From Thalassotalea nanhaiensis (GTDB lineage Bacteria; Pseudomonadota; Gammaproteobacteria; Enterobacterales; Alteromonadaceae), in NCBI RefSeq assembly GCF_031583575.1, contig NZ_CP134146.1, forward strand, positions 3,844,001-3,908,000: 64,000 nt of DNA. Reading direction: 5' to 3'. Made by a program: the position numbers and the translations under genes. Numbering within the stretch: the stretch's first letter is position 1; every line of letters starts with the position of its first letter. The notes under the pieces were generated by a model. It was not told the origin of the DNA. It did not search any database and worked only from the letters and a program-made list of their open reading frames with translations. This document shows, piece after piece, positions 8,576-27,716 of the stretch.

Positions 8576-8581
8576 ACTCGC

Positions 8582-9658: not shown

Positions 9659-9775
9659 ACCTTCCCCAAAATAAAAAAATCTTTTTATGTTATGAAGTTA
9701 GTATAAAACGAAGTGAGGGATTTTAGCAGCAATTAATTTACATAATTGCTACTTTTTTTGGCTTTTCGAGGAATT

Positions 9776-10117
9776 TTAAATAGAAAAAGAAGAGCCACAG
9801 CCACAAGTGGTTTCTGCATTTGGATTGTCAACTAAGAAACGACTGCCTTCTAAGCCTTCGATGTAATCAACTGTGCCACCAACAAGATATTGTAAGCTCA
9901 TTGGATCGACCACCATAGTTACGCCTTCTTTAACGATAGTCATGTCGCCATCATTTACTTTTTCATCAAAAGTAAAACCGTATTGAAAACCAGAACAGCC
10001 TCCACCGGTAACGTAAACACGAAGTTTTAATTCCGGGTTTTCTTCTTCGCTAATGAGTACTTTTACTTTATTAGCGGCAGCGTCACTGAATTGAATTGGT
10101 AATTGGGTATCTGACAT
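9776..10117 (-). CDS. erpA: Iron-sulfur cluster insertion protein ErpA
   Basis: An A-type Fe-S carrier of 113 residues, nearly collinear with E. coli ErpA. It transfers [4Fe-4S]/[2Fe-2S] clusters to apoproteins such as the isoprenoid enzymes IspG and IspH. The three cluster-binding cysteines are Cys41 (GGGCSGF) and Cys105 and Cys107 (TCGCGSS near the C-terminus). The block [24 protein letters not shown], seen over about residues 71-94, is diagnostic for ErpA over IscA. A 6-bp hairpin (GCAGAT/ATCTGC, 10154-10169) lies upstream, between erpA and the preceding gene. The neighbourhood clcA/hemL matches E. coli. Confidence 0.97.
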
Positions 10118-10224
10118 AGGTTACTTCTTAAAAATTACGGCAATAAATCTTGAGCAGATTAGTATCTGCGGATTATCTTAAACCTGAGCAATTTAATCAA
10201 GTATTATTGCTAATCATGCCGCTA

Positions 10225-10950
10225 TTAACCAGTTTTAACCGTTTTCCAAGGGTAACTTTCGTCTAAACGATGGGACTTTTGCCACTTACCTGCAGGCAAT
10301 ATTGCTGAAACATCAATTTTTTCAGGGACAAAATCTTTTGGCAAGGCAAACTCGGCCTCAATAACCTGAAAGTATTGAAAGCTAAACGCTAGTGAGTTTT
10401 TATCAAGCTCGGTCATTTTAGCAATGTTAATAGTGGCAGGACGATTAACTAAACTGCCGGCAAAAGTAATGTCTACTCGCCCCTTGGCAAAGCGTTTACT
10501 TTTCTGTTGTTGTACTAGCACAACGCGAATTCGATAATGATTGTCACTTGCGCTTGGCGTAACCTCTACTTCATCAATAATAATGCCATTCGCCTGTTTT
10601 TCAGGAGCCATTATTTTTTCATAAAATGCCAGTTCTTTTTTCAACGAAAAGTGATCATCTTCAATGCTTCTAAGCGCTTGTTGCGCTTTTTGGTTTGCCA
10701 GACGTTCAATTTCAAGCTCTACCTGCAAGGTATTAAGTCTACTTTTTGCTTGTTCGTTTTTTTGATACAACTTTTCTAAACGTTCAGATTGCTCTGCGAT
10801 GAGTTGATTTTGATGTTTTTGATAAAAATTACCGGCCTTATACGAAAGTATAATAACCACAAATAACACTAAGCCACTGGTTATTAGTAATTTAAATGCA
10901 CCATATCGCTGGTGTAGGTCTGATATTGTTATTTTTTTTAACCAATTCAT
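10225..10950 (-). CDS. Membrane-anchored coiled-coil protein (DUF6776-like)
   Basis: A protein of about 241 residues with one N-terminal membrane helix (about 19-37), a long charged coiled coil (about 45-105, rich in Glu, Lys, Gln) and a C-terminal beta-rich domain ending in a conserved-looking SYPW motif. It resembles the uncharacterised gammaproteobacterial family called DUF6776; this is from memory of the family and was not searched. Function is unknown. The start is unclear: ATG at 10950 is chosen, but a TTG at 10992 in the same frame adds 14 residues, and neither has a good ribosome-binding site. It is divergent from the CLC gene and upstream of erpA on the same strand. Confidence 0.65.
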   Translation of the reverse strand: MNWLKKITISDLHQRYGAFKLLITSGLVLFVVIILSYKAGNFYQKHQNQLIAEQSERLEKLYQKNEQAKSRLNTLQVELEIERLANQKAQQALRSIEDDHFSLKKELAFYEKIMAPEKQANGIIIDEVEVTPSASDNHYRIRVVLVQQQKSKRFAKGRVDITFAGSLVNRPATINIAKMTELDKNSLAFSFQYFQVIEAEFALPKDFVPEKIDVSAILPAGKWQKSHRLDESYPWKTVKTG

Positions 10951-11036
10951 TTTTAAGGTATTATCTATTTTAAGTATGTTAAACTTGTACAACCAATCTA
11001 TAAAACCAACAAAAATAATAGTAACAAAGGTAACAC

Positions 11037-12722
11037 ATGTCTTTAGTGTCGTTTAGAACCAAATTAGCTAAGCCGGAGCCTTCCTGGCAATTATGCCTGA
11101 TAGGTATAATTGGCGGCACATTAGCGTCACTATGTATTATTTTATTTCGTTTAAGTGTCGAGTCTTTACAATTATTGTATCTGGAAAATATTGATGACTA
11201 CACCACTGTATCAGAATTTTACCGATTTATAACCCCTGTTATCGCCGTACTTTTTATTTTAGCCTTGGCTTGGATATCAAAATTTAAGTATTCCAGAATG
11301 GGCATACCATTTGTGATACATCGCTTGAAAGCCAATTATGGCTTTATTCCGTTTAAAAATACCCTTACTCAATTTTTTGGCGGTATTTTTGCCCTGGCGG
11401 GTGGTTTTTCTGTAGGTCGAGAAGGGCCTGCTGTACATATTGGCGCAGCTTCGAGTAGCTTTTTAGGTAGTAAATTGGCACTACCGCATAATTCCATTAG
11501 AACTCTGTGTGCCTGTGGGGTTGCAGCTGGCATATCGGCAAGTTTCAATACGCCTTTAGCGGCAGTTATTTTCGTTATGGAAGTGATATTGCGTGAATAC
11601 AAATTGCACATATTCATTCCGGTAATTCTAGCGTCTATCATTGGCTCAATGATGACCCATGCGGCGTTTGGCCCTTATCATGAATTTGAGTTTTTTGCCT
11701 ACATCGTTATCGACTTTTGGCATTACCCTTTGTTGATCATTTTTGGCGTAGGTCTAGGTTTTTTAGCCAAGTTATTTAATACCAGTTTAATCGCAACGTT
11801 AAGAGTTTCTTCAAAGTACCATATGGCTAAACGGTTAGTGTTAGCGGCATTAATTATGGGTACTATCGGGTTATTAGTACCGCAAAGTATGGGGGCGAGT
11901 TTAAGCGCTATCGGCTCAATGCTCGACCAAAACTCTCACTTACTGATAATAATATCAATATTAGTCGCTAAATTTATCGCTACAGTGGCTGTACTTGGCT
12001 TAGGTGTACCGGGTGGGATCATTGGACCAACCTTAGCTATTGGAGCAATTGCCGGCGCCTTAATGGCATTTTTTGTTAGCTTTTTATACCCTGAAGTCAG
12101 CTTTGCAGGTGATTATGCGTTAATGGGTATGGCCGGCATGTTAGCAGCAACATTGAATGCACCGCTTGCAGCGTTATTAACCGTAATAGAATTATCTAAT
12201 CAATTACAATTAGCCTTACCCGCGATGGTGGTTATTACTTCGGCTTATTTAACCTCAGCCCAATTTTTAAAGAATCGTTCGATATTCTTACAACAATTAG
12301 AATTTCAAAAGCTGCCCTACCTTGCCTCTCCGGTAGAAAGGGTGTTACAAAAACATGGCGTGTTATCGCAAATGGATACTAATTTCAAAGTTCTTAATGC
12401 GCCTGATAGCAATCAAATAAAGTGGTTACTTGCAGGACAAAATCACGGCGAAAAGTTGATCATTAAACCAGATAACAACGAATCCATTTATAAATTAGTA
12501 CAAATTGACATGAACATTCATCCATTAGATGGTGAAGATCAAGCAATTAAGTCCACCTTTATGCCTGCGATAGACAGCCAAGCAACGTTATCTGAAGCCT
12601 ATTTTGCACTATACAAACAACGCGAAGGCGCGGTGTATATTTATCACAGGTCAAAGGATAAAATTATTGGTGTGTTAGCATTTGAAAAAATTCGGAAAAT
12701 ATTAACTCAAGGTAACGTTTAA
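11037..12722 (+). CDS. CLC-family chloride channel/transporter
   Basis: A 561-residue CLC anion transport protein with a C-terminal cytoplasmic extension (about 430-561) that may be a degenerate CBS pair. The gating-glutamate motif is GREGP (127-131, Glu129). The segment FNTPLAAVIFVMEV aligns with ClcA FNAPLAGILFIIEE and has Val183 where ClcA has the internal proton-transfer Glu203. The first selectivity motif GSGIP is replaced by SRMGIP. Both changes argue against simple ClcA-like 2Cl-/H+ exchange, so a passive channel or another anion is possible. AAAGG lies 7 bases before the ATG. It holds the position of clcA in the E. coli order hemL-clcA-erpA, and the next gene starts 2 bases after its stop. 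Confidence 0.9.
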   Translation: MSLVSFRTKLAKPEPSWQLCLIGIIGGTLASLCIILFRLSVESLQLLYLENIDDYTTVSEFYRFITPVIAVLFILALAWISKFKYSRMGIPFVIHRLKANYGFIPFKNTLTQFFGGIFALAGGFSVGREGPAVHIGAASSSFLGSKLALPHNSIRTLCACGVAAGISASFNTPLAAVIFVMEVILREYKLHIFIPVILASIIGSMMTHAAFGPYHEFEFFAYIVIDFWHYPLLIIFGVGLGFLAKLFNTSLIATLRVSSKYHMAKRLVLAALIMGTIGLLVPQSMGASLSAIGSMLDQNSHLLIIISILVAKFIATVAVLGLGVPGGIIGPTLAIGAIAGALMAFFVSFLYPEVSFAGDYALMGMAGMLAATLNAPLAALLTVIELSNQLQLALPAMVVITSAYLTSAQFLKNRSIFLQQLEFQKLPYLASPVERVLQKHGVLSQMDTNFKVLNAPDSNQIKWLLAGQNHGEKLIIKPDNNESIYKLVQIDMNIHPLDGEDQAIKSTFMPAIDSQATLSEAYFALYKQREGAVYIYHRSKDKIIGVLAFEKIRKILTQGNV

Positions 12723-12723
12723 A

Positions 12724-13161
12724 ATGAGCAGTTTATTATGGATTAAAGCCTTACATGTGGCGTTTATGGTTGCCTGGTTCGCCGGTATTTTTTACTTACC
12801 AAGACTGTTTGTTTATCATGCCGAGTCTAAAAATAAGGACGTGCATGAGCAATTAAAAATCATGGAACGTCGACTACTGTATTTCGTTACACCGTTTGCT
12901 CTATTAACACTAATTTTTGGCTTAATACTTATCTATATGATGGGCAGTAATTGGTTTATCCACAGCACTTGGCTTCACATAAAATTAGTGTTGGTGGCTT
13001 TATTATTTGTGTATCACGGCTATTGCTTTAAATTACTTAACGACTTTAAAACCGACCAAAATACTCGCTCGGGCAAGTTTTTTCGACTATTTAATGAACT
13101 ACCGGTATTTATCTTATTTGCCGTTATCATTTTAGCGATTGTTAAACCGGTCATTTATTAA
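12724..13161 (+). CDS. hemJ: Protoporphyrinogen IX oxidase, HemJ type
   Basis: A 145-residue, four-helix membrane protein of the UPF0093/HemJ family, which oxidises protoporphyrinogen IX to protoporphyrin IX late in haem synthesis. It shows the family's short N-terminus with a conserved His (His11, IKALHVAFMVAWFAGIFYLP), the YLPRLFVYH motif after helix 1 and HIKLVLV in a later helix. It follows the CLC gene by 2 bases, so the two are cotranscribed. hemL, another haem-pathway gene, lies 1.2 kb downstream. CopD-like proteins share the fold, but the length and motifs favour HemJ. Confidence 0.85.
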   Translation: MSSLLWIKALHVAFMVAWFAGIFYLPRLFVYHAESKNKDVHEQLKIMERRLLYFVTPFALLTLIFGLILIYMMGSNWFIHSTWLHIKLVLVALLFVYHGYCFKLLNDFKTDQNTRSGKFFRLFNELPVFILFAVIILAIVKPVIY

Positions 13162-13285
13162 CAAAATAGCGATTCTGTGTTAAAGTTGCGCGCATAATGA
13201 ACTAGGTAATATTTAAGCTGTATCAACTTACGCTTTACCCTAGTAAATAACCAATATATTTAATAATAATATCAGGCAGTTAACC

Positions 13286-14293
13286 ATGATGAATTTTCAA
13301 GGCAGCCATATTTTATCGGTATCACAATTTGATCGTGAATCGGTATCTCGCATTCTTGAAGTTGCGCAAGCAATGATCCCTTATGCCAGCAGACAAAAAC
13401 GTTGTCATGTGCTTGAAGGGGCGATTTTAAATAATCTTTTTTTTGAACCGAGTACTCGTACTCGTATTTCGTTTGGCACAGCCTTTCAATTGCTCGGCGG
13501 CTTTGTTCACGAAACGGTCGGTCAAGAAAGCTCATCATTATCCAAAGGCGAGTCATTATTTGATACTGCACGGGTGATCAGCGGTTATTCTGATGTAATT
13601 GCCATGCGCCACCCTGACATGCATTCGGTAGCTGAATTTTCTACCGGCAGCACTGTACCAGTAATTAACGGTGGCGATGGTGCGAACGAACACCCTACTC
13701 AAGCGCTATTAGACTTATTCACCATTCAGGCTGAAATGAGCCGTTTTGGTAAAGGCATCGATAACTTAAACATTGTGCTAATGGGCGACTTGAAACACGG
13801 ACGCACAGTACATTCATTATCAAGATTATTAAGCTTATATAAAAACTTAACCATTACCTTATTGTCGCCAAAAGAATTACAAATGCCAGCCTACATTGTA
13901 GATGTATTAACTAATGCAGGCCATAAAGTAAATATTACCGAAACGATGGCGGGCAATTTAGAAAGCGATGTGGTTTATCAAACCCGTATCCAGCAAGAAC
14001 GATTTGCAAGTATTGCTGAAGCCGAACAATACCGCGGTCACTTTAGCCTAAATAAAAGTGTTTATGAGCAGTACTGTAAAGATCATACGGTGATAATGCA
14101 CCCGCTACCAAGAGATGCTCGCCCTGAAGCGAACGAACTCGACATAGATTTAAATGACAACAACAATTTAGCAATTTTCCGTCAAGCCCAAAATGGCGTT
14201 TTAGTACGCATGGCATTATTTGCCTTAACCCTTGGAGTTGATGAGAAACTTACCCAATATGAAAAAGAAGTAACTTGGTTTACGAATAAATAA
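13286..14293 (+). CDS. pyrB: Aspartate carbamoyltransferase catalytic chain
   Basis: Condenses carbamoyl phosphate with aspartate in the first committed step of pyrimidine synthesis. At 335 residues it is about 25 longer than E. coli PyrB. The carbamoyl-phosphate loop FFEPSTRTR (52-60), the SLSKGES loop with its catalytic Lys (Lys87), HPTQ (135-138) and HPLPR (271-275) are all present. No regulatory pyrI gene follows; hemL starts 32 bases later. The ATG at 13286 is preceded by CAGGCAG; a Met-Met start makes the exact codon uncertain by one. Confidence 0.96.
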
Positions 14294-15606: not shown

Positions 15607-15626
15607 CTTAACGACAATTTAAATCC

Positions 15627-15658
15627 AAAAAGCCCGTGTTTATCACGGGCTTTTTTTT
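15627..15658 (+). terminator. hemL factor-independent terminator
   Basis: A 12-bp stem (AAAAAGCCCGTG / CACGGGCTTTTT) with loop TTTAT, followed by eight T (15651-15658). It is symmetrical enough in A/T tracts to work in both directions. Confidence 0.95.
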
Positions 15659-15991
15659 GACCAAATAAGAGTTAATGCAATATATTCTGCCGCTATTAGA
15701 CCACTAAGACCCTCTCATCTACCAAACAACTTCGGTTGCCTTTTTCCTTCCTTAAAACTACCTCTTTGAATTTTTCAACGAAAACGATATATTGGATTGA
15801 TTAGTTTTTAGACTGAAAATGTCTGCATGTAGTAGTCTAGGTATTATCACTCTAATAAGCTGTTTTATTTATAGTTGTTTTAGTAACTTTGAATAATCTT
15901 TAATTTCACCTAAACCCCTTATTTTACTTGCTTTTTATCCTTTATTACGTTTTAAATAGTACACCACTTTTTTAAACAGCGTGACTACACT
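15659..15991. other. Non-coding left flank of the integrated element
   Basis: No convincing gene is seen in these 333 AT-rich bases. The left attachment site of the neighbouring integrase should lie here or in the hemL terminator, but no tRNA fragment or clear direct repeat with the right side was found. At 15691-15698, CCGCTATT begins a stretch that loosely resembles the dispersed repeat seen at 23423-23447. Confidence 0.5.
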
Positions 15992-17215
15992 GTGTCTACA
16001 CGTAAAATTACTAAGTCTTTTGTAGACAAGCTTGGATTTCCTGAAACGGGACAAGCTTTTCATCGAGATAACACCTTAAAAGGCTTTGCCATCCGTGTAA
16101 CTTCGGGCGGAAGTAAGGCTTTCATTCTTGAAAAACGTATCAATCGAAAAGTACGTAGAATAACGTTAGGTCGATATCCTGAAATCACCGTTGAAATGGC
16201 TCGTAAAGAAGCCCTTAAATATTTAGGTGAAATTGCGACAGGTGTAGATCCAATTGCAAAAAGGCAACAGCAAGAAGCTGAAACTCTTACCTTATGGCAA
16301 GTGTGGCAAGAATATCGAAGAGTTAAATCAAATTTAAAAGATAAAACCTATGTGCAATACGAAATGTACTTTAATGGTGAACTCAAAGATTGGAAAAATA
16401 AACGCATTGTAGATATCACTAAAGATATGATTGTTACTCGACACAATCGTTTGTTATCAACTCATAGCCCTTCATATGCTAATACTGCTATGAGAATATT
16501 AAGCGCTATTTATAAGTTCGCTAAAGGGCAATACGAAGATAACTCAGGTAATAGTTTATTCCCCCACAACCCTATTGATAGGTTAGGTCAATTAAAAGCG
16601 TGGGCAAAAGAGCCAAGACGACAAACTCTTATAAAACCACATCAACTAAAACCTTTATATATCGCATTACAAGATATGAAATTCAATACAGGTGCAGAAT
16701 CAGATCACGTGGCGGCTGACTATATTTTATTTATTTTATTAACAGGACTTAGAAAAAATGAAGCCGCTACATTGACGTGGGATAATGTCGATCTACAAGA
16801 AGGGACAATTCATATTCCCGATACTAAAAATAAAGAGCCTTTAACATTGCCACTTACCGATGTTCTTAGTGCTATTTTAAGTTATCGCTATAGATTTAGA
16901 ATTAATGACTATGTGTTTTCATCAAGAAAGAAGGGATATTTTGCCTACCCTGAACATTCACTAAAATATTTAGTTGAACAATCAAAAATTAAGTTTACCT
17001 TCCACGATCTCCGTAGAACGTTTATAACGGTTGCTGAGTCATTAGATATATCATCTTATGCAATAAAGCGTTTAGTGAACCATAAAAGCGGCTCAGACGT
17101 TACTGAGGGCTATATTATTTCAAATCATGATAGGTTAAGAGCTCCTATGCAACGCATTACGGATTTTTTTAAGGTGCAATGTGAAATAAACAAGGATGAT
17201 ATTAATGGAAACTGA
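15992..17215 (+). CDS. Tyrosine integrase with DUF4102 arm-binding domain
   Basis: A 407-residue site-specific recombinase of the P4/phage-integrase group. An N-terminal arm-type DNA-binding domain (about 1-90, GFAIRVTSGGSKAFIL) is followed by a core-binding SAM-like domain (about 100-185) and the catalytic domain. The catalytic residues are all visible: Arg254 (TGLRKNEA), the Lys279/281 region, His338-x-x-Arg341 (FHDLRRTF), His364 (LVNHKSG) and nucleophile Tyr374 (TEGYI). The start is a GTG at 15992. It integrates and excises the element. The next gene overlaps its 3' end by 11 bases, so the two are translationally coupled. Confidence 0.95.
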   Translation: MSTRKITKSFVDKLGFPETGQAFHRDNTLKGFAIRVTSGGSKAFILEKRINRKVRRITLGRYPEITVEMARKEALKYLGEIATGVDPIAKRQQQEAETLTLWQVWQEYRRVKSNLKDKTYVQYEMYFNGELKDWKNKRIVDITKDMIVTRHNRLLSTHSPSYANTAMRILSAIYKFAKGQYEDNSGNSLFPHNPIDRLGQLKAWAKEPRRQTLIKPHQLKPLYIALQDMKFNTGAESDHVAADYILFILLTGLRKNEAATLTWDNVDLQEGTIHIPDTKNKEPLTLPLTDVLSAILSYRYRFRINDYVFSSRKKGYFAYPEHSLKYLVEQSKIKFTFHDLRRTFITVAESLDISSYAIKRLVNHKSGSDVTEGYIISNHDRLRAPMQRITDFFKVQCEINKDDINGN

Positions 17216-17987
17216 GCTAACTGATTTAGCACAAGCATTAACACAGTCAGAAAAACAAAAACGTATAGAATTGATAAAAGAAGTTATTAACGACTCTAGT
17301 GCACTATTTAATAATTTAAATGACCATATTGATATATCACACTTTCAAAAACTGTTCGCTATCGTTAATAGCACGATATCTGATGATAATTTATTAAGCC
17401 AAAGTATAACGAAATCATTTTGGGTATTAGAACTACTGTTAGCCGCCAATACCAATCAACCTAACTATCATGGCAAACTATTGTTCGAGTACATGGACAT
17501 TTTTGACATAAGTCCAAAAGAGTCATTATCACTTAGTTGGTCAACCATCTTTGCTATTACTGCAATTGATAGATTATGTGAATTATGTGCTTCGTTTGAC
17601 AATGAAGTGAACCTAGAAAAAGCGCTTGCACATCAAGCGAAGCAAAGTGCAGAAAGACTTCATTTAGATGCAATTGATTGTGGGTCAAAAGCAATGGTTT
17701 TCACCAAGCTTATCGATGAGAATTGGGCGAGTTCATATTTAAGTAAATTACAAACAGCTAAAAGAGTAGCTAAAACGGACAAGCTTAAAGGAATCGTACT
17801 AATTCGTTATATTCGAGAGCATACCGATGTAGATGTTACGTCTGCTGCAAATGCTATAGAAAGCCAGTTAGTTTCAGAAAATTGTCCTGAACTTTCTTCA
17901 TTAAGATCAGAAGCTAGAAGAGCAAAAACATTCGCCGAATGGATCAATAAACATAAAGAAGGTGAACTTAAAATCCCTATTTTTTAG
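17205..17987 (+). CDS. Unknown protein coupled to the integrase
   Basis: A 260-residue, apparently all-helical soluble protein with no recognised domain. There is no signal peptide or membrane segment. Acidic and Leu/Ser-rich stretches dominate, and the C-terminus (LRSEARRAKTFAEWINKHKEG) is basic. The ATG at 17205 is preferred because AAGG lies 9 bases upstream; an ATG three codons earlier sits on that site. It overlaps the integrase stop by 11 bases, suggesting a product needed in proportion to integrase, such as an excision helper. That role is only an inference from position. Confidence 0.7.
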   Translation: METELTDLAQALTQSEKQKRIELIKEVINDSSALFNNLNDHIDISHFQKLFAIVNSTISDDNLLSQSITKSFWVLELLLAANTNQPNYHGKLLFEYMDIFDISPKESLSLSWSTIFAITAIDRLCELCASFDNEVNLEKALAHQAKQSAERLHLDAIDCGSKAMVFTKLIDENWASSYLSKLQTAKRVAKTDKLKGIVLIRYIREHTDVDVTSAANAIESQLVSENCPELSSLRSEARRAKTFAEWINKHKEGELKIPIF

Positions 17988-17991
17988 CTGT

Positions 17992-18009
17992 CCGTTATCA
18001 GGATAACGG
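17992..18009. promoter_or_regulatory. Palindrome CCGTTATCAGGATAACGG
   Basis: A perfect 8-bp inverted repeat with a 2-base loop, 4 bases after the stop codon of the preceding gene and about 110 bases before the AlpA-like gene. There is no T tract. It shares the CCGTTA half-site with palindromes inside the replication gene and at 21342-21366, so it is more likely a protein-binding site or operator of the element than a terminator. Confidence 0.55.
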
Positions 18010-18115
18010 GACGCTAGTCCTCTAATTCTCTTTTAATTCATTCAAATTTCCTCCAACATAATAAGCGACTTTATGGTCATTAACTTTTAAATTTAACCGC
18101 CGCTGTGAAGCGTAA

Positions 18116-18325
18116 GTGAATAACATGATAAACAAACTATTAAATACAAAAGAAACCGCTGAAATTTTAAATGTCAGTGAAGCGTTTTTAGAACGTGACC
18201 GTTGGGCTGGTGCTCGAATTCCATTTATCAAAGTGGGCGCACGAGCTATCCGTTATCGTTCGCAAGATATAGAAAAATACCTCGAAGACAATTTATGTTA
18301 CTCCACCAGTGAAGGGGTTGCATAA
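18116..18325 (+). CDS. AlpA-like helix-turn-helix regulator/excisionase
   Basis: A 66-69-residue DNA-binding protein of the AlpA/MerR-like HTH_17 group, typical of P4-type satellites and integrative elements, where it promotes integrase expression or excision. The helix-turn-helix is LLNTKETAEILNVSEAFLER, followed by the winged segment IPFIKVGARAIRYRSQDIEKYLED. A GTG at 18116 and an ATG at 18125 are both possible starts. The stop codon overlaps the next ATG by one base (TAATG), so the genes are coupled. Confidence 0.85.
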   Translation: MNNMINKLLNTKETAEILNVSEAFLERDRWAGARIPFIKVGARAIRYRSQDIEKYLEDNLCYSTSEGVA

Positions 18326-18600
18326 TGAAAATCACTCCCTCTATTAGTCCATGCTTAAAATGGTTTTTGAACGGGCATCATTTAGATTTTTGCGTAGACG
18401 TTTGTGGTCAATTTGGTCATACCTTACCTTCCGTACCTGATGGAAATTTCATCAAGAAGGGTAACCTTAGGGATTTGCAAGCGAAGGGTTATATTACTAA
18501 AGAAAACACATACATATTTGGAGTTCAATATTCGCGATTCACTATAACTGAGTTTGCTAAAAAGTTTTTTAAAGGTAATGTAAATGATTTCACAAGATAG
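18325..18600 (+). CDS. Small unknown protein of the element
   Basis: A 91-residue protein with no recognised domain. It contains three cysteines in the first 28 residues (CLKWFLNGHHLDFCVDVC) and a basic C-terminus. Its start overlaps the stop of the AlpA-like gene by one base, and its end overlaps the start of the replication gene by 17 bases, so it belongs to one operon with them. It could be a replication or copy-control accessory; nothing in the sequence proves this. Confidence 0.7.
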   Translation: MKITPSISPCLKWFLNGHHLDFCVDVCGQFGHTLPSVPDGNFIKKGNLRDLQAKGYITKENTYIFGVQYSRFTITEFAKKFFKGNVNDFTR

Positions 18601-20380
18601 CGAGATTAATCATGAACTAAACAAGCGAGCACCAGTTTTTCGTGACTATGATTTTTTAACTGCGGAGTGGCATAAATGCCCTGCTGACAGAGCTGATGTA
18701 GAGTTTATTTTTCATCATCTGTCTAAACTGCCGGATCAGTTAAAAAGATTAGTGCTTAACAATGCTTTAAAGATAGAAAGTAGACGAGATAGAAATTTAT
18801 ATATTCTAAATACCACTAAAAGAATAGTGGATTTTCTACCTGCAAAACTTCGTTATTCATTAACGGTTGATGATGAAGAAATTAGAAAAATTGCGGAAGA
18901 GTCTGCGGATAGGTGCAGAAGGTTAGCAACCCTTCATAATGTTAAGTTTCGCTATAGTGCATCAATGCCTCAATCCGTTAAAGGGTTTGATAATAGCGTT
19001 ACGAAAGGCACAAATCCGTTAAGGAGTAATCACATTAATAGAAATCCCGTTAACGTAACGGGGAGTAATAGCCCGTTAACGGAAATTTCCGTAACGGACA
19101 CATCCGAAACTTACCGAGTATTGACAGAGTACATTGAAACTTTTCGAATTGATCCTATTGCTGTTACGAGTCATGGCGTAACGGAGCTAGGTGCAATTAA
19201 GCGCATGTGCAATAAAAATTGGTGGATTCGAAGATTACGTAAAATCTTTAACCAAGCGTATGAACAAGCCGCCATAGAGTTAATTTTGGTGAATAAATAT
19301 AAGCAGATATACGCCAGTGATTTAACCGTAACGAAAAGGAAACAACAACTTTTCCGTAACGAACAAATCATGAGTTCAATGCTTGTTATAAATGATATTG
19401 GTCAACAATATTCATTAAAGGATTTGTCTGACTTAAACGTTTCCAATCCTCAAGTGCGAAAAGCTGAGTTAATGGTTCGTATGCGTGGCTTTGAAGAACT
19501 GTCTCAAGAGCATGGTCATAAAGGTATATTCATTACCATTACCTGCCCTTCAAAATATCATGCTACCTACGCAAAATCAGGTCAGAGGAACGTGAAATAT
19601 GAGAACTTAACCCCTTATCAGGGAAATCAATATTTATGCTCTGTATGGTCTCGTATTCGCGCAGAATGGAATCGACAAGAGATTAAGCCTTACGGTTTTA
19701 GGGTTGCTGAACCCCAACATGACGGAACACCACATTGGCACATATTACTTTTTGTTGAAGAAAAACATATTACAACTGTGAAAAACGTTGTTAGCCATTA
19801 TGGCTTGCAAGAAGATGGAGACGAAAAAGGGGCGTTAGAGAATCGATGTGATTTTAAATTGATAGACCCCAAAAAAGGTAGCGCGACTGGCTATATTGCT
19901 AAATATGTATCAAAAAACATTGACGGAAAAGGGCTAGACGTTGGTGTTTATGGTGAAGACCCAATCACTGCTGCACAACGAGTAGATGCTTGGTCCTCAT
20001 GTTGGTGTATACGTCAGTTTCAACAAATTGGTGGCGCATCAGTATCCGTATGGAGAGAATTAAGGCGTTTAAAGCAGTCAATGGGTAAAGACACATTAAT
20101 AGAAAAAGCAAGACAAGCTGCTGATGAAAGCAAATGGAATGATTATATTAATGTTATGGGTGGCGTCTTTGTTAAAAGAAAAGACCAACCACTAACGCTT
20201 GCGTATGAGCTTGCATCGAATATAGAAACAGGCGAATGCAAACTCGGTTATTACGATGGTAATTTTATTAAAAACATTAAAGGTATACTTTACAAAGGGC
20301 AGATGATTATCACGCGATTCTTTAGTTGGAGAATGGAAAAGACAGGAACTGACTTTTCTAACTTGGAGTTCTGTAAATAA
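18584..20380 (+). CDS. gpA-type HUH replication endonuclease
   Basis: A 598-residue rolling-circle replication initiator of the phage P2 gpA family (PF05840 type). The metal-binding HUH motif is HWH in GTPHWHILLF (His384, His386). The catalytic helix carries the two-tyrosine signature YIAKY (Tyr437, Tyr441), which defines the replicases that cut and rejoin repeatedly. An upstream beta-strand motif, IFITITCPSKYH (315-326), completes the fold. Residues about 128-180 are a low-complexity linker rich in Asn, Ser and Thr, whose DNA holds strong palindromes (19046-19097). The protein should nick the element's origin and start single-strand replication. It is the last long gene of the element operon. 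Confidence 0.9.
   Translation: MISQDSEINHELNKRAPVFRDYDFLTAEWHKCPADRADVEFIFHHLSKLPDQLKRLVLNNALKIESRRDRNLYILNTTKRIVDFLPAKLRYSLTVDDEEIRKIAEESADRCRRLATLHNVKFRYSASMPQSVKGFDNSVTKGTNPLRSNHINRNPVNVTGSNSPLTEISVTDTSETYRVLTEYIETFRIDPIAVTSHGVTELGAIKRMCNKNWWIRRLRKIFNQAYEQAAIELILVNKYKQIYASDLTVTKRKQQLFRNEQIMSSMLVINDIGQQYSLKDLSDLNVSNPQVRKAELMVRMRGFEELSQEHGHKGIFITITCPSKYHATYAKSGQRNVKYENLTPYQGNQYLCSVWSRIRAEWNRQEIKPYGFRVAEPQHDGTPHWHILLFVEEKHITTVKNVVSHYGLQEDGDEKGALENRCDFKLIDPKKGSATGYIAKYVSKNIDGKGLDVGVYGEDPITAAQRVDAWSSCWCIRQFQQIGGASVSVWRELRRLKQSMGKDTLIEKARQAADESKWNDYINVMGGVFVKRKDQPLTLAYELASNIETGECKLGYYDGNFIKNIKGILYKGQMIITRFFSWRMEKTGTDFSNLEFCK
18974..19363. promoter_or_regulatory. Candidate replication origin: CCGTTA/TAACGG cluster inside the rep gene
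   Basis: About ten copies of CCGTTA, CGTTACG or CGTAACG fall in 390 bases. The core is a perfect 7-bp palindrome CCCGTTAACGTAACGGG (19046-19062) and, 10 bases on, a 25-base palindrome with a single bulged A (19073-19097, arms CCGTTA...TAACGG around a self-complementary CGGAAATTTCCG). A third hairpin GTTACG...CGTAAC lies at 19163-19182, and CCGTAACGAA is directly repeated at 19326 and 19354. In phage P2 the origin also lies inside gene A. The origin role is inferred. Confidence 0.6.
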
Positions 20381-20393
20381 CTGTACTAAAGAA

Positions 20394-20498
20394 ATGAAAT
20401 TAATAAAAAAAGCAATTAAAAACCATGAAAAAACAAAATATAACAGGGTTGTTTGTGAGGGCGTGACCGTCTCAAAAGTGCCATTAGCTGCCTATTAG
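20394..20498 (+). CDS. Possible 34-residue small protein after the rep gene
   Basis: An ATG-initiated frame of 34 residues beginning MKLIKKAIKNHEK, basic at the N-terminus, 13 bases after the replication gene. No good ribosome-binding site is present, and the last third overlaps one copy of the dispersed repeat (20464-20488). It could be a small element gene or chance. Confidence 0.25.
   Translation: MKLIKKAIKNHEKTKYNRVVCEGVTVSKVPLAAY
20464..20488. repeat. Dispersed repeat, inverted copy
   Basis: TGACCGTCTCAAAAGTGCCA followed by TTAGC. It matches, in inverted orientation, 23 of 25 bases of 23423-23447. A shorter, more diverged copy in this same orientation lies at about 22677-22693 (GTCTCATAAGAGCAATT). 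Confidence 0.8.
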
Positions 20499-20518
20499 GA
20501 GCTTCTAATATAACTAGG

Positions 20519-21175
20519 TTATTGGTTAAGCTGAATTTGATAATCAATAAACACGGTTACTTGTTTATCGTTTTTTTGCCTAACTATTACAGGGTTCTCT
20601 ATGCCAGAAATTGACACTTTGTATTCGGTTCCCAGAACTTCCTTAGTGGAATTGATTTCAGCTTTAATTTTGTTAAGCAATTGACTTCTGTATTGCTCTG
20701 GGGAGGCTAACGCTAGAGAAGTATTACCAAGTCTCAAGTTAGTGTCTTCTGGAATTTCTATCTGAGAAATAAAGTTATAAATTTCTTGGGTAGCACTGTA
20801 TATATCTTTTGAATCATCTAGCTTAGCTAATATATAAAACTTAGATTCAGAATTTCGACCGTAAGACCTTGAAATTGAAAAAGAAGATTTTTCTCTTGGA
20901 GATAGTGAAATTACGCCCTGTTGAAAGTCTATGTTAGTTGCTTGAGATGCCTTTGAATTGATTATATTTTGGAGTTTGTTAATTAACTTAGCTCTTTCAG
21001 CAGGCATTTTAGCATCAGCGGTAATTGTAACCGATAACGCTACAAAGTCTGCATCAACGTCTATCGAGCTATTAACTGGAACATCACCTGTCCCATACGC
21101 AATGACTACTTTTAACAGTCCAGCATTAGCACTAACTGAAATTACTAGCAAAAAAACACCAAGAAGTTTATACAT
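20519..21175 (-). CDS. Secreted SIMPL-domain-like protein
   Basis: A 218-residue exported protein with signal peptide MYKLLGVFLLVISVSANA. The mature part begins with a beta-strand pattern like SIMPL (DUF541) proteins (DVDADFVALSVTITADAKMPAER), with a helix LINKLQNIINSKA and later a second helix LLNKIKAEINS. SIMPL-family proteins are periplasmic or outer-membrane associated with poorly known functions. The start at 21175 is supported by AAAGGA 7 bases upstream and by the signal peptide; earlier in-frame starts would precede it with a charged stretch. It is the only minus-strand gene of the island and is divergent from the gene at 21515. Confidence 0.6.
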   Translation of the reverse strand: MYKLLGVFLLVISVSANAGLLKVVIAYGTGDVPVNSSIDVDADFVALSVTITADAKMPAERAKLINKLQNIINSKASQATNIDFQQGVISLSPREKSSFSISRSYGRNSESKFYILAKLDDSKDIYSATQEIYNFISQIEIPEDTNLRLGNTSLALASPEQYRSQLLNKIKAEINSTKEVLGTEYKVSISGIENPVIVRQKNDKQVTVFIDYQIQLNQ

Positions 21176-21341
21176 CCTAATTCCTTTTAAATTATTTTTA
21201 TTAGCCTTTATAACTATTCGTTTGTCACAGATATCTTCCGTCAGCAATTCGCTCTTAACCGCCGCTGGGTAAGTTAATTATTTGTAAACCTACAATACAT
21301 GATGTTATTGTAATTACACAAGTTTTTTAGCAGCAGTTACA

Positions 21342-21366
21342 GTCCGTTATGAGCGAAACAACGGAC
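21342..21366. promoter_or_regulatory. Inverted repeat GTCCGTT...AACGGAC
   Basis: A perfect 7-bp inverted repeat with an 11-base spacer in the 339-base divergent gap between the SIMPL-like gene and the gene at 21515. It contains the same CCGTT half-site as the element's other palindromes. It could be an operator, or a relic of the element's right end. No other structure stands out in this gap. Confidence 0.45.
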
Positions 21367-21514
21367 GTGAAAACTCAATAACCTGATGCTCTCCTACAAG
21401 CTCATATAAGTAGTTTCTTATTTAAACATATATAACTAAGTATTTAACCAATCTTACAGACATATTAAATATGTCCTTTTACATGGTAATTTGAATATAA
21501 CATTAGGGAAGATC

Positions 21515-22624
21515 ATGAAAATAGATGTAAGCGACGAAAAAATAAATAAATTTAGAGAGTTAGTTAACGATAATTCTAGCTTTGTTTGCAAACAATATAA
21601 AAACAAAAACGGTAAAAATTTATGGCACCCAATTTGTTCTTGTATGGATTGGATAACGGTCTCAATTAGATTTCTTCAGGATGCACCTGAATTAAGCGAT
21701 AACATTGATGTTAGAGTTATGCAGATGTATTCATTTATTTCTGCCATTGATATTGTCGCTGAATCAATCACGCAACTTCACCGTGTTTTTATTAGCCACA
21801 AAAATTTACCCTTTAAAGGTGATGAATCTATTTTTAAATACAAGCTGTTTGAAAATGACGATAACGATTATTTTAAACAAATTAGAGCTTGCTATGGTGC
21901 TCACCCTGTAAATTTAAACCCTCATAATTCGAACCAGCAAAGATACTTTGCAAGTTGGCCCTTTGATGGTTTTAATACTGGAAAAACAGATCTTGATGTT
22001 CGCTTATATAGTAACAGTCCTGAAGAAGAAGATTTAACACTTTCATTAAAATCAGATGAACTTATCTCTTTTCTTAAAAGTAGATATGAGTATTTAGATG
22101 TGATTTTTGATGAAATTAATAAACAGTTTTTAGACTTTAAAGAAGATCAAAGCAAAAAATCAATAACTGCTAATGGTTCACCGCTGGAAGTTCTTCATGA
22201 GCTTTCTAAAGAGTCCTCTATTCGTCTTGATAATGACTACTATCAAGGAATGATAAACGATTTAATTATTATCTTCAGAACAACATTAGATGATGAATAT
22301 CAAATTGAAGAAGTTGAATTTAAAGAAAGCTTGCTCCCATTAATTGAGGAAATAAAAGTAAACTTACAAGCAGTTGAAATCAAAGATTTAGAACTTCATT
22401 CACTGGTATATATTGACTCAACTATTGATTCAGAATTAAGTTATGAATTACCTAAGTTTTATTCTTGGCTTTACCGTGGGGAATATGATCCCCTATTAGA
22501 TTACTATATCAGAAAGCTAAACAAGGTATCAGATAACAAATATAAATTTAGTGAATCAGATGGTTGTGATAAATCATTTTTAAAATTAAAGCTTATGCTT
22601 AAAATGCATTCAACTAGATTGTAG
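21515..22624 (+). CDS. Unknown protein with a possible HEPN-type R-x5-H motif
   Basis: A 369-residue soluble protein, mainly helical in its first half. Around residues 66-130 two helices are followed by FKQIRACYGAHPVNL, an R-x5-H motif (Arg124, His130) within the R-x4-6-H signature of HEPN ribonucleases. The aromatic segment RYFASWPFDGF follows. The C-terminal half is acidic and rich in Glu, Leu and Ile. If the motif is real, an RNA-cleaving defence or toxin role is possible, but the match is short and could be chance. The ATG at 21515 is chosen because AGGGA lies 7 bases upstream. It stands alone on the plus strand after a divergent gap. Confidence 0.6.
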   Translation: MKIDVSDEKINKFRELVNDNSSFVCKQYKNKNGKNLWHPICSCMDWITVSIRFLQDAPELSDNIDVRVMQMYSFISAIDIVAESITQLHRVFISHKNLPFKGDESIFKYKLFENDDNDYFKQIRACYGAHPVNLNPHNSNQQRYFASWPFDGFNTGKTDLDVRLYSNSPEEEDLTLSLKSDELISFLKSRYEYLDVIFDEINKQFLDFKEDQSKKSITANGSPLEVLHELSKESSIRLDNDYYQGMINDLIIIFRTTLDDEYQIEEVEFKESLLPLIEEIKVNLQAVEIKDLELHSLVYIDSTIDSELSYELPKFYSWLYRGEYDPLLDYYIRKLNKVSDNKYKFSESDGCDKSFLKLKLMLKMHSTRL

Positions 22625-22748
22625 TAAACGACTATATCTGTCACAAATTTGACGTTAACTATCTGAAAAGGTTAATGTCTCATAAGAGCAATTAATCGAC
22701 ACTTTGTTTGACTAGCAAGCTAAAATTTATGAAGTCCAAGGATTTGTG

Positions 22749-23285
22749 ATGAAACATATTTTAACCATTCTTACTGCTCTATTTTTAATTAGTTGTAGTG
22801 AAAGAACTGATTATTCTCAACCACATGAATACATTAAACCTTTATCATACGGAGGTGGTTATGTCTCTTTAGAAGGTAATGATTATCAGTATTCAGGTAT
22901 AGGTGTAATACCTAAAACCAATAGGTTTCCTATAAATGAAGGAAAGTGCGAGTCGTATATAAAAAACATTAAGAAAAAGAAAGTAGACTTATCAATTCAA
23001 GGCTTTAACTATTATATAAGAACCGATCACTTAAACGATAAATTTGTTAGGCACGCTAAATTTGTATGTGTGCAATATAAAGGTGAAAAAAAAGGTTGCA
23101 GAGAACATTATCAAAAGGAAACTCAGAGGTATATAAAAGAAAATAAATTAACAGGTGCTGAAGCGGCACGAGCAATACTGTTAATTGATATGGAAACATA
23201 CTCTCGTTGCAGAAATGAAGAGGTCATAGGGGAAACTGAGATGTTCCATACGTATGGTTATGAAGATGATTCATATATAGATTAA
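22749..23285 (+). CDS. Small lipoprotein of unknown function
   Basis: A 178-residue predicted lipoprotein: MKHILTILTALFLISC has a lipobox (LISC), so the protein is acylated on Cys16 or nearby. The rest is charged and Tyr/Lys-rich, with a further four or more cysteines (GKCESY, FVCVQ, KGCREH, SRCRNE) that could form disulfides in the periplasm. No domain is recognised. The ATG at 22749 has AAGG 7 bases upstream; a GTG directly before it is an alternative. Confidence 0.65.
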   Translation: MKHILTILTALFLISCSERTDYSQPHEYIKPLSYGGGYVSLEGNDYQYSGIGVIPKTNRFPINEGKCESYIKNIKKKKVDLSIQGFNYYIRTDHLNDKFVRHAKFVCVQYKGEKKGCREHYQKETQRYIKENKLTGAEAARAILLIDMETYSRCRNEEVIGETEMFHTYGYEDDSYID

Positions 23286-23606
23286 GATATTTAGGTCGCT
23301 CAATCCAATCTAACAAAATGATGATTTAATAAACACAATCTAACAATATATACTAAGCTTTCGTTGCTCTCGGTCATATTCAGGGTCGATATTAGTGAGT
23401 AGCACTTAATAACTCGACTTCCGCTATTGGCACTTATGAGACGGTCAGAACTGAAAAAAAGATTTTATGTTTTTATTGATTTGAATGACTACATAAGGTC
23501 TACATTTTAAAGTGGTATATCGACAACCTATTGATTTTAAAGATGTTGGTGTGATTTAAATGATAATAAGCTGTTATGTTCATTGGCGAATTGCGGAGAA
23601 TATATT
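23286..23606. other. Intergenic stretch carrying a dispersed repeat
   Basis: About 320 bases without a plausible gene. From about 23350 to 23447 the sequence is less AT-rich than its surroundings, and it ends in the repeat TGGCACTTATGAGACGGTCA (23428-23447). Nothing else is recognised. Confidence 0.5.
23423..23447. repeat. Dispersed repeat, direct copy
   Basis: The block ending TGGCACTTATGAGACGGTCA is the inverted partner of 20464-20488 (23 of 25 bases). Together the two copies bracket the SIMPL-like, HEPN-like and lipoprotein genes. Confidence 0.8.
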
Positions 23607-23846
23607 ATGAGCAAACCAGAACGTGCTTCAGATATTCCATATGCGGTAGAGGTCGAATCAGGCAAGAATTATTTTTGGTGTTCTTGCGGAAAAAGTGACA
23701 CCCAGCCCTTTTGTGATGGCTCTCATAAAGGCTCAGAATTTACACCTGTAAAGTTCACGGCTACAGAATCTTGTAAAGTGTTCTTTTGTGGCTGTAAGTC
23801 AACAAGAACTAAGCCGGTATGTGACGGTAGTCATAAACAAACATAA
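23607..23846 (+). CDS. Double CDGSH iron-sulfur protein
   Basis: A 79-residue protein with two complete CDGSH-type [2Fe-2S] motifs: WCSCGKSDTQPFCDGSH and FFCGCKSTRTKPVCDGSH. Each provides the Cys3-His1 ligand set (C-x-C-x-n-P-x-C-D-G-S-H). Paired motifs without a membrane anchor are typical of bacterial and CISD3-like members, which act in iron-sulfur or redox homeostasis. GGAG lies 9 bases before the ATG. It is short and self-contained, with a gene-poor stretch upstream. Confidence 0.93.
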   Translation: MSKPERASDIPYAVEVESGKNYFWCSCGKSDTQPFCDGSHKGSEFTPVKFTATESCKVFFCGCKSTRTKPVCDGSHKQT

Positions 23847-23927
23847 CATCTTTTCAAGCTGGAATTTTTGTTAATTAGTAAAATGGACATCATCCATTTT
23901 TCGAGAAAGATCGATAAAAAGGACGTT

Positions 23928-24617
23928 ATGATCATCAATAATCTAAAAAAAATACTGTCTGATGAAGTTAAACTGTTGACCTTCAGAGCGATTAAGCTAG
24001 ATTTTGCAATGTTTAATTGGTATTTGGCTTTTGGGATTTTCTTTACTTGGTTGTGTGGAATAGGAAGATATTGGGATAACCCTAAAGCCGAGTTGTGGCA
24101 GTATCTTGGTTTGGGTTCAGTCGCTTATATTTTTATTTTGGCATTTATACTTTGGGTCGTTATTGCTCCGCTAAAACCTAATAACTGGAGCTACAAAAAT
24201 GTTCTTCTTTTTATTTCTTTAACATCACCACCAGCTATTTTATATGCGATACCAGTTGAACAATTTATGTCGTTAAAGTCAGCTCAGAGCGCGAATGTAT
24301 GGTTTCTTGCCATTGTTGCTATATGGCGAGTTGCTTTGCTACTTAAATACCTTAAAGATGTTGCAGGTTTGTCCGGCTTTTGTGTTTTAGTCGCCACCCT
24401 TTTGCCATTAACACTTATCGTAAGTGGGTTAACCGCTCTTAACTTAGAGCATGTTGTTTTCAAAATCATGGCAGGTTTGGAAGAACATGAAAAATCAGCT
24501 AACGACAACGCTTATTTTGTGCTTATATTAATAACAACATTTTCTGTTGTAGCTTCACCGGTATTATTAAGTATGTACGGATGGTTTGTTTATGAAAAGC
24601 GTGTCAAAAACATCTAA
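23928..24617 (+). CDS. Conserved multi-spanning membrane protein, function unknown
   Basis: A 229-residue inner-membrane protein with about five or six hydrophobic segments, including MFNWYLAFGIFFTWLCGIGR, VAYIFILAFILWVVIAP and LLPLTLIVSGLTAL. The motif GIGRYWDNP and the SPPAILYAIPVE loop look conserved from memory of similar gammaproteobacterial hypothetical proteins, but no function is known. The ATG at 23928 has AAGGA 5 bases upstream and fits better than the earlier TTG or ATG. Confidence 0.65.
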   Translation: MIINNLKKILSDEVKLLTFRAIKLDFAMFNWYLAFGIFFTWLCGIGRYWDNPKAELWQYLGLGSVAYIFILAFILWVVIAPLKPNNWSYKNVLLFISLTSPPAILYAIPVEQFMSLKSAQSANVWFLAIVAIWRVALLLKYLKDVAGLSGFCVLVATLLPLTLIVSGLTALNLEHVVFKIMAGLEEHEKSANDNAYFVLILITTFSVVASPVLLSMYGWFVYEKRVKNI

Positions 24618-24718
24618 TAAGAATTTCAACTAAGCTACAAAAAGTTTGCTCAGTTTCTCTTCACATTCTCGCAAACTATTATCAACCAATTAATTGGGCG
24701 TAATGCCTCAGTAGGGTT

Positions 24719-25207
24719 ATGATGAATTTATCTGACGATCAAAGATTAGAAATAATAAAAATAGAAATGGGACTTATACAGTCTACTTTGGATAAATATG
24801 ATGACTTGATTTTTAGAAATAGAAATTGGTTTATTACACTTTGGATGGGAACTATGGGGGCAACATTTACAATCAAAGAACCATTATTCCCTCTATTTGC
24901 TACTATGTTAGCCTTACTCTACTGGTTTACCGAAGGAATGATGCGTCACCAATATTGGTATAAGTATGTATTGAGATATCGAACTCTTAGAGAGAACTTT
25001 AATTCTAAAAGTGCCATTATTTCAAATATATCACTTTATGATTTAACAAATCGCTATATGGATGAGCACGGAACTTCCAATGAAAGACTCAAAAAGTCCT
25101 TTTTTAAATTAGAGCCTTCTGTAATCTATGGTCTCATGGCTTTATGCTCGTTAATTATTTGGCTATTACTAATAAATGGTACTGTAGTGTTCAGTACAAA
25201 CGAATGA
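24719..25207 (+). CDS. Small membrane protein, function unknown
   Basis: A 161-162-residue protein with an N-terminal helix (SDDQRLEIIKIEMGLIQSTLDKYDDL), a pair of membrane segments close together (about 38-70), a charged cytoplasmic middle and one C-terminal membrane segment (YGLMALCSLIIWLLLI). The layout loosely recalls SLATT or S-4TM-type effector proteins, but no signature is clear. The start is one of two consecutive ATGs after TAGGG. Confidence 0.55.
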   Translation: MMNLSDDQRLEIIKIEMGLIQSTLDKYDDLIFRNRNWFITLWMGTMGATFTIKEPLFPLFATMLALLYWFTEGMMRHQYWYKYVLRYRTLRENFNSKSAIISNISLYDLTNRYMDEHGTSNERLKKSFFKLEPSVIYGLMALCSLIIWLLLINGTVVFSTNE

Positions 25208-25259
25208 CAAATAATAGTTGGTTTTTCCCCTTTAATAGGTGTTAGAGCACACTCAGGCT

Positions 25260-25736
25260 ATGTATTTATATCCACATAACAATCAATGGAAATTTGAGTT
25301 TGAACATGAAAAAGACTCCATTATTTCTAACTATGAAGGGAAAATTGATATTTTTCATATTGGCTCTACAGCAATAAAGGGCCTGTATGCAAAAGATTGC
25401 ATTGACCTTCTGGGGGTTGTAAGAGATATATCTGAGGTTTCAATTTTAAAGCAGAACCTTATTGATCTTGGCTATGATTATAAAGGTGAATACGGTATTT
25501 CTGGCCGGGAGTACTTCTCGAAAAAACAAAGAAAAGTTCATTTTCATATTTTCCAGTCTGGAGATTTGAATATAGAAAAACACTTAAATTTTGTTAAAGT
25601 CATGCAAGGTAACTCAGAATTGATTGCTGAATTAAATCAGATCAAACAACAGTTGCAGGCAAAGTACCCAAAGGATAAAAACTACTATCAAAGTGAGAAA
25701 GAATTTTTTTATAATCGAATCAATAAAGAGAAGTAA
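25260..25736 (+). CDS. GrpB/UPF0157 family nucleotidyltransferase-like protein
   Basis: A 158-residue member of the GrpB (PF04229) family, which adopts a nucleotidyltransferase fold. The family motif HIGSTAIKGLYAKDCIDLLGVV is present at about residues 33-54, and VHFHIFQSGD further on corresponds to the conserved HxH strand. Substrate is unknown. The ATG at 25260 matches the usual family N-terminus (YPHNNQWKFEF); a GTG at 25239 would add seven residues. Such genes are frequent in integrons and other cargo regions. Confidence 0.8.
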   Translation: MYLYPHNNQWKFEFEHEKDSIISNYEGKIDIFHIGSTAIKGLYAKDCIDLLGVVRDISEVSILKQNLIDLGYDYKGEYGISGREYFSKKQRKVHFHIFQSGDLNIEKHLNFVKVMQGNSELIAELNQIKQQLQAKYPKDKNYYQSEKEFFYNRINKEK

Positions 25737-25747
25737 CAAGGGGAATT

Positions 25748-25876
25748 GTAAAAGAAACAAATGCAATTGATATAGAGTTAAAAACAGCTGTAAACAACAC
25801 TACAGCCAGAAGTCTTTATAAATCTATGAATTTTCAAATAGATGCTGATAATATTTATTACAGAGTTCCATGTTAA
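25748..25876 (+). pseudogene. GNAT acetyltransferase 3' remnant
   Basis: An open stretch of 42 codons that reads as the C-terminal end of a GNAT N-acetyltransferase: ELKTAVNNTTARSLYKSMNF carries the typical NxxARxLY..xxF acceptor-side motif, and it ends IYYRVPC then stop. No upstream coding part with the acetyl-CoA loop is present, since the GrpB gene ends directly before it. This is a truncated leftover, not a functional gene. Confidence 0.75.
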
Positions 25877-25919
25877 TTAGCGAAAAAGGCTCCCTTAATA
25901 GTCAAAACAGTAGGTTTTA

Positions 25920-26282
25920 ATGAGTATATCAATGCGACAACAACTGAAAGAAGCGTTTAATTTAGAAATGGATAAAGCGGCTCATCTATATGAGAAAAAT
26001 GAGTTTGACTCTGCATTTGTTCACCTAGAGCGAGCTCATATTCTGGGGCAGTCTTATATTATTCCTCATACAAAATCCCACTGGTGGATGCTAAAGATTG
26101 GCTTTAAAAAGCATAAATTTAGAGACGTTTTAGGTCAGATAACAAGAATTATAGCGTCCATATTGTTTTCCAGGATTTGGGTTCCTTTAGGTAATACTGG
26201 AGGGACAAATGTTAACCCATTGAAGCCTATGCCAATTCCTGAGGATCTAAAAAACATTTTGGATGAACGACCAAAAACGTGA
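25920..26282 (+). CDS. DUF3703 family protein
   Basis: A 120-residue protein of the DUF3703 family. The characteristic blocks are FVHLERAHILGQSY (about 34-47), the HWWMLKIGFKK segment and VPLGNTGGTNVNPLKPMPIP near the C-terminus. It is often found in accessory DNA and near metal-resistance genes; biochemical function is unknown. AGG lies 6 bases before the ATG. Confidence 0.8.
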   Translation: MSISMRQQLKEAFNLEMDKAAHLYEKNEFDSAFVHLERAHILGQSYIIPHTKSHWWMLKIGFKKHKFRDVLGQITRIIASILFSRIWVPLGNTGGTNVNPLKPMPIPEDLKNILDERPKT

Positions 26283-26394
26283 TCGTATCAGTAGTATATC
26301 TATTTCAGAAAAACGCCCTCTGATAGATGCCACAGGAAATGTGTAACAAACGAATTTAAATCGCGGAACATTATGGCAATAACGGAGTAGTAAT

Positions 26395-26793: not shown

Positions 26794-26865
26794 CAAGGCA
26801 TTCAAATTTACTAAATTCATTTGATTATTAGGTAAATTATGTGTTCATAAATTTTTGGAAATTAA

Positions 26866-27171: not shown

Positions 27172-27221
27172 CAGATAATGCATCTCTAAATTTTTCAAAA
27201 TAGGTTAGCTAAGGATTTAAA

Positions 27222-27611: not shown

Positions 27612-27716
27612 TTTAAACGTTGAAAACGGATTTATCAGACACGTAATTTATGAAGTGATGAATCAATGCAGTATTAGCTATAGTAAAGTCTTACAATCAA
27701 CTAAACAGGAATTGAA

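Follow-up and report, generated by a model that had tools for sequence, protein, structure and literature searches.

Which kind of mobile element lies downstream of a gene that we take, from its translation, to be hemL in Thalassotalea nanhaiensis, and how could so small an element be copied, moved and supplied with passenger genes? The window, i.e. the whole stretch of 64,000 nucleotides that was analysed, comes from a host genome that is a single contig of 4.31 Mb. The original prediction saw in it a minimal integrative element with its own rolling-circle replicase, possibly a phage satellite or a helper-dependent circle that replicates itself after excision, and the best candidate there for an undescribed system. 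Taken as a whole, we consider it probable that the locus holds a phage-satellite-like element of 7.7 kb which is copied as a circle by its own Rep, packaged by a helper phage and provided with other cargo by exchange at its replication origin. Similar elements are widespread and form one family with it.

Core genes of the element

Five core genes were identified, all on the forward strand. The first (15992-17215) encodes a tyrosine integrase of 407 aa, which matched PF00589 and PF13356 (1.8e-16 each) as well as phrog_1 (7e-52) and carries HxxR at position 338. ORF2 (17196-17987) overlaps the integrase gene by 20 nt (17196-17215) and is the positional equivalent of iolg in the PICMI satellites. 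It gave no family match above cut-off and a poor AF2 model (pLDDT 49); homologues with 20-26% identity occupy the same place in five relatives, and none was found in viral contigs. After a gap of 128 nt follows alpA (18116-18325), encoding an AlpA-like excisionase or regulator of the HTH_17 type (PF12728, 9e-10; phrog_66, 4e-6; TIGR01764 score under the family cut-off). ORF4 (18325-18600) encodes a small protein and is coupled to both alpA and rep. It had no Pfam or NCBIfam match and a weak one to phrog_6336 (E 0.007), and its homologues sit between AlpA and Rep in the relatives. The fifth gene, rep (18584-20380), encodes a P2 gpA-type HUH rolling-circle initiator of 598 aa (PF05840, 5e-83, 279 bits) with the motifs H384-x-H386 and Y437-xxx-Y441. 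Its match in the PHROGs comparison, which covered the five core ORFs only, was phrog_91 (4e-161, annotated as 'nicking at origin of replication'), and 324 phage records matched Rep, all below 60% identity.

The five genes that had been predicted are real. Their description as one overlapping set was not confirmed, since the gap between ORF2 and alpA interrupts it. A lack of relatives with the same five genes, which would have counted against the prediction, was not observed: the complete set recurs at four further loci, namely L114, L118 (where ORF2 is split in two), L137 and L171.

Borders and insertion site

The original prediction had placed the element at 15659-20498. These borders were given up, since 15659 is merely the end of the hemL-side similarity to two relatives and the repeats and arm sites lie elsewhere. 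The 12-nt core TAATAAGCTGTT is present in two identical forward-strand copies, attL at 15853-15864 and attR at 23564-23575, and each end also carries one forward-strand arm-type site GACTACA-N4-GTCTACA (15983-16000 and 23487-23504). Sites of this kind, one per end, were found in all five elements examined (the window, L035, L036, L039 and L043); the left one lies 130 nt inward of its core and the right one 77-79 nt ahead of its core. The TAATAAGCTGTT repeat pair recurs in L035, L039 and L043, while L036 has the variant core TAATAGGTTGTT at both ends. We therefore set the element at 15853-23575 (about 7.7 kb), so that three more genes behind rep (20519-21247, 21491-22624 and 22746-23285) fall inside it.

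Elements with an integrase of the same clade have TAATAAGCTGTTTTATTT in common at the left, and a further TAATAAGCTGTT follows a long way behind it, as in the window, L035, L039 and L043. Among twelve elements of this clade, from 11 of 395 family genomes, an exact second core was found in six (window, G074, G228, G274a, G274b and G002), and G378 offers a candidate with one mismatch. For G069 and G363 no second core was found within the sequence stretch covered, and G163, G271 and G212 had no match to the left-core pattern. An empty site for the window locus, which had been proposed as a check, was looked for and not found; nor does the left flank have a second copy elsewhere in the genome.

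The surrounding region varies as well. From hemL, the next conserved gene is at 28589-30937; what lies between the two (15607-28588) is almost absent from the related genome L070 and differs in content among other relatives, and is hence a variable spot that reaches beyond the element. In L249 (G363), the left neighbour at about 3135-3212 resembles the right end of another family element, with an arm site and a flank as in L043, and reads as a tandem insertion.

A P2-type origin at the end of rep

A 26-nt predicted double-strand origin lies at 20361-20386 on the forward strand, with the predicted nick at 20365. It spans the stop codon of rep and encodes the last rep codons (NLEFCK-stop). The P2 record NC_001895 annotates an ori nick at 29892, and the P2 sequence there, CCTCGGAGTCCTGTCAATAACTGTGG, is identical to the window site at 20 of 26 positions. 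When the family site was compared with five other gpA loci (four from P2-type phages and one from a plasmid), 21-24 of the 26 positions agreed. In P2 the origin sits within gene A, and a Vibrio phage has an almost identical one (PMC3986222). By contrast, the window origin ends rep, and those of relatives lie up to about 340 nt behind it. Among 30 full-length cases, the origin starts 15-19 nt before the end of rep in 14 and 17-287 nt behind it in 16.

The pattern ACTTGGAGTTCTGTAAATAA[C/G]TGTAC was present behind 21/21 Reps of the first 20 relatives, and the origin is kept behind Reps that share as little as 34% identity with that of the window. In the window the motif occurs once, with 0 occurrences expected. 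Allowing up to two mismatches, 45 of 295 family genomes contained it, at 58 places in all, and the reversed-pattern control gave 0. The 25-mer core of the origin was located 78 times in genome contigs, chiefly of Alteromonadales; in 71 cases it is preceded by the leading A of the 26-mer. A Rep or Rep remnant is located upstream of 69 of these 78 sites and no recognisable Rep at the other nine. Many origins (e.g. L113, L130, L145, L149, L152 and L179) are preceded by a short C-terminal Rep remnant only; such remnant-only or Rep-less origins are possible scars of exchange, products of decay, or origin-only passengers. A codon-conservation scan of rep for a second origin revealed several conserved codon runs, none of them a clear second origin. 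At 19307-19331 and 19970-20040 synonymous sites are unusually conserved, and these runs are possibly further cis signals.

Two other readings of the 26-nt site were discarded. It is not confined to the family: although the full 26-mer had no match among IMG/VR viral contigs, the 25-mer occurs in three of them (L374, L381 and L395). The phage form of the origin, with C after TGT, is present in at least 120 viral contigs, and among the matches listed a Rep stood at the site in 78/80 loci. Because of this association and the match to the P2 nick site, we also dropped the reading of the site as a phage packaging site. By our own reading, L395 (Zot-like and filamentous-phage-like ORFs) and L374 (a gene set unlike that of a tailed phage) are not P2-like, and the P2-type Rep and origin seem to be common to unrelated small phages.

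The kinship with P2-type phages (Peduoviridae) is clear in the PF05840 Rep, its HUH motif and the two tyrosines of its YxxxY motif, and the P2-type nick site, all features of a gpA-type replicon. Unlike these phages, the window element has no structural genes and carries AlpA beside Rep. One may ask whether the locus is what is left of a P2-like or other prophage after loss of the structural genes, a reading to which the gpA-type Rep, the P2-type origin and the occurrence of the 25-mer in three viral contigs would lend themselves. Two observations make it very improbable. AlpA stands just ahead of Rep in 24/25 testable full-length family loci, as against 0/56 testable phage-form viral loci among the matches listed. 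Moreover, the AlpA-Rep-origin core recurs with varied integrases and cargo. Given the att repeats, arm sites, gpA-type Rep, matching origin and relatives, the locus is almost certainly an integrative element that brings along a Rep and an origin of P2 type. Of this, the original prediction had the compact integrative element and its rolling-circle replicase, but not the origin.

Probable exchange of cargo at the origin edge

Similarity between family elements stops sharply at the origin. When blastn similarity was followed through and past the origin in 176 family pairs, it broke off within 0-5 nt in 156, after 6-15 nt in 17, after 16-50 nt in two and beyond 200 nt in one. This statistic was dropped as the main argument because weakly similar viral pairs stop at the origin too: in the viral control, likewise without an identity floor, 216 of 435 pairs ended within 5 nt. 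At 85% identity or more, all 46 family pairs ended within 15 nt past the origin, versus two of 79 pairs of viral P2-type loci, of which 68 ran beyond 200 nt; these pairs share sequences (44 family, 38 viral) and are hence non-independent. In narrower bands, obtained by subtraction, the similarity ended within 15 nt in 33/33 family versus 1/14 viral pairs at 85-90% identity, and in 46/47 versus 2/28 at 80-85%.

The converse arrangement was also observed. L117 and L149 have 2.6 kb of cargo in common (81%), and L131 and L179 have 2.5 kb (86%), with no upstream blastn match longer than 150 nt in either pair. In both mosaics, the common cargo starts at a distance of 10-152 nt from the origin. Only a Rep remnant of 143-347 nt is left in L149, L131 and L179, three of the four loci, so the absent upstream match is weak evidence there. 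The stop of similarity at the origin and these converse mosaics together indicate that cores and cargoes recombined at the origin edge, and we hold that cargo has very probably been exchanged between family elements at this point. That Rep itself does so has about an even chance: the cutting and joining of two origins by Rep would be the simplest cause, and other recombination within the shared 26 nt is the alternative. A block of 120-170 nt that is about 79-96% alike was noticed in otherwise differing cargoes, roughly 1.6-3.6 kb past the origin (L113, L128, L129, L130, L145, L147, L156, L160 and L173); it is perhaps a common right end or regulatory block.

The sharp edge could also be read as the end of the element rather than as an exchange point, with the origin forming one end of a rolling-circle transposon behaving like IS91 or Helitrons. 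The same similarity stop, and the Rep tails that occur with an origin and without a core, would suit such a transposon. We regard it as quite improbable all the same, since in 5/5 elements the cargo is followed by an arm site and an att core, and the core includes an integrase and AlpA; an unsystematic inspection showed no second transposon end either.

Cargo genes

Between the origin and attR, the window element carries one gene on the reverse strand (20519-21247) and two on the forward strand (21491-22624, 377 aa, and 22746-23285, 179 aa). None of the three had a Pfam match above cut-off or any NCBIfam or PADLOC match; to our reading, the N-terminus of the third reads like a lipoprotein signal. 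The PADLOC sample consisted of ten proteins, namely these three, both from L035, three from L043 and two from L039. It identified a type II methyltransferase and restriction enzyme in L035, a retron I-A reverse transcriptase accompanied by PtuA and PtuB in L043, and PDC-M68A/B-like proteins in L039. The cargo of L036 includes a pectate-lyase-like protein. Defence genes were thus found in the cargo of three of the four relatives examined.

Integron-type targets in the integrase clade

Several elements of the same integrase clade lie next to integrons. An integron integrase gene, intI, stands divergently and directly to the left in 5/12 of them (G163, G069, G274a, G212 and G002, broken in the last), and attC-like sites occur in or beside 9/12. 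In G163 and G069 the attC-like sites are located behind the origin in reverse orientation, and the cargo of L039 contains attC-like sites. For G271 and G363 neither an adjoining intI nor an attC-like site was found. L247 (G163), at oriented positions 8310-13566, holds an inverted attC array and a second full-length integron integrase behind the origin.

The window element has no intI nearby. A single attC-like site, at 24607-24705, shows 70-78% similarity to the attC sites that belong to the host's chromosomal integron (intI at C1:54185-55132, with 44 attC profile matches in 54-90 kb); the genes on the right-hand side of the element therefore resemble stray integron cassettes.

Many further copies of the L043 left flank were found; these end in CATAATAAGCTGTTA, after which a different sequence continues, and four adjoin the start of intI. 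These copies look like unoccupied versions of the same target, and ends that resemble attI accordingly appear to serve this clade as attB. The dispersed flanking repeats were also considered as classical attC sites; this was unsupported, as no close inverted partner was found and the repeats look attI-like. By title, we found no paper on point that links integron attI with satellites or islands.

Comparison with known satellites and islands

The closest likeness in gene order is to the PICMIs of Vibrionaceae. PICMI115 consists of int, iolg (which overlaps int), alpA, up1 and prim, of which int, iolg, alpA and prim are required for transfer; iolg is required for excision, and expression of alpA sets off excision without phage (PMC10803314). 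PICMIs are moved by a virulent phage, being induced and packaged as a concatemer (PMC10803314). The window element shares with them the order integrase, int-overlapping gene, alpA, small gene and replication gene, as well as small size, lack of capsid genes and a marine gammaproteobacterial host. It differs in having a P2 gpA-type HUH Rep with its own P2-type origin where PICMIs have a primase, in its att core TAATAAGCTGTT and in a cargo block behind the origin. In the published model, colocated int, alpA and prim are mandatory and an int-overlapping gene is common, though not mandatory (PMC10803314). Here int and alpA are present and the overlap measures 20 nt versus the published 1, 4 or 13 nt (PMC10803314). 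The primase family is absent, replaced by a PF05840 Rep, and the element is located downstream of hemL instead of at fis. Since neither of the defining features, prim and a location at fis, is found here, the window element is not a PICMI.

Elements of Escherichia coli that combine an integrase, AlpA and an HUH Rep with defence genes have been proposed as satellites in a 2025 preprint (PMC12458937). They likewise have an AlpA-like excisionase, an HUH initiator, direct repeats and defence cargo, the last found in the relatives of the window element. They differ in their tRNA gene targets and large payloads, and their repeats measure 16-20 nt versus 12 nt here (PMC12458937); no tRNA gene was found in the window. 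In the accessible part of the preprint, neither an origin site nor a cargo junction at the origin edge nor integron targets are mentioned. I55 has been shown to be carried by a phage, islands of its type are moved by a jumbo phage, and many of them encode an inovirus Gp2-like protein (PMC12595487). I55-type islands also combine a tyrosine integrase, AlpA and defence cargo, but are apparently larger, lie at tmRNA and have int and alpA near opposite ends (PMC12595487).

The claim that the system is undescribed therefore holds in part. The E. coli kin and the PICMI layout are known, while a P2-type origin at a fixed place, exchange at the origin edge and an integron-targeting clade were not met in the accessible portions of the literature on related elements.

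Proposed life cycle

The predicted lack of capsid, packaging, relaxase and conjugation genes was borne out: Pfam and NCBIfam detected no capsid, terminase, portal, relaxase or conjugation family in any of the eight main ORFs that the att repeats enclose. A plasmid search returned only short rep-internal matches, in two Pantoea records. A self-replicating integrative element could in principle do without a phage helper and be moved in trans by conjugation, vesicles or natural transformation; no packaging gene was found among the ORFs, and an own Rep-origin pair permits helper-independent copying. We consider this unlikely, because the eight ORFs include no relaxase family, the Rep and origin are of phage type, and the gene order is that of proven satellites. 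The original suggestion of a phage satellite is accordingly plausible, in view of the gene order of proven PICMIs and the defence cargo in three of four relatives, and transfer by a helper phage seems rather likely. The P2-type capsid gene PF05125, the one family covered by the helper search, was absent from the host's own genome.

The gene content, the arm sites and att cores, the origin, the sharp boundary between core and cargo and the integron-type targets of the relatives can all be read directly in the DNA; from them we infer how excision, rolling-circle copying, exchange by Rep and helper-phage packaging may proceed. The integrase, with ORF2 and AlpA as putative excision helpers, would integrate and excise the element between the TAATAAGCTGTT cores. 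The excised circle would then be copied by its own P2 gpA-type Rep nicking the P2-type origin at the rep end, and would most likely leave the cell inside helper-phage particles. The cargo block behind the origin could be swapped between elements, the simplest way being that Rep cuts two origins and joins them anew. A wider reading, which we offer tentatively and think rather doubtful, is that of a satellite family whose Rep both copies the element and swaps cargo at the origin as a cassette junction, with one integrase clade using the border of attI and the first cassette as attB and thereby gaining integron cassettes as additional cargo, in keeping with the attC-like sites in the L039 cargo.

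If this is true, very small satellites would stay competent for replication and yet keep changing their passenger genes, some of which serve anti-phage defence, and the replication origin would at the same time be the point of exchange. With its almost unchanging sequence, the 26-nt site offers a simple probe for the family, and the integron link would join two gene-capture systems, satellites and integrons.
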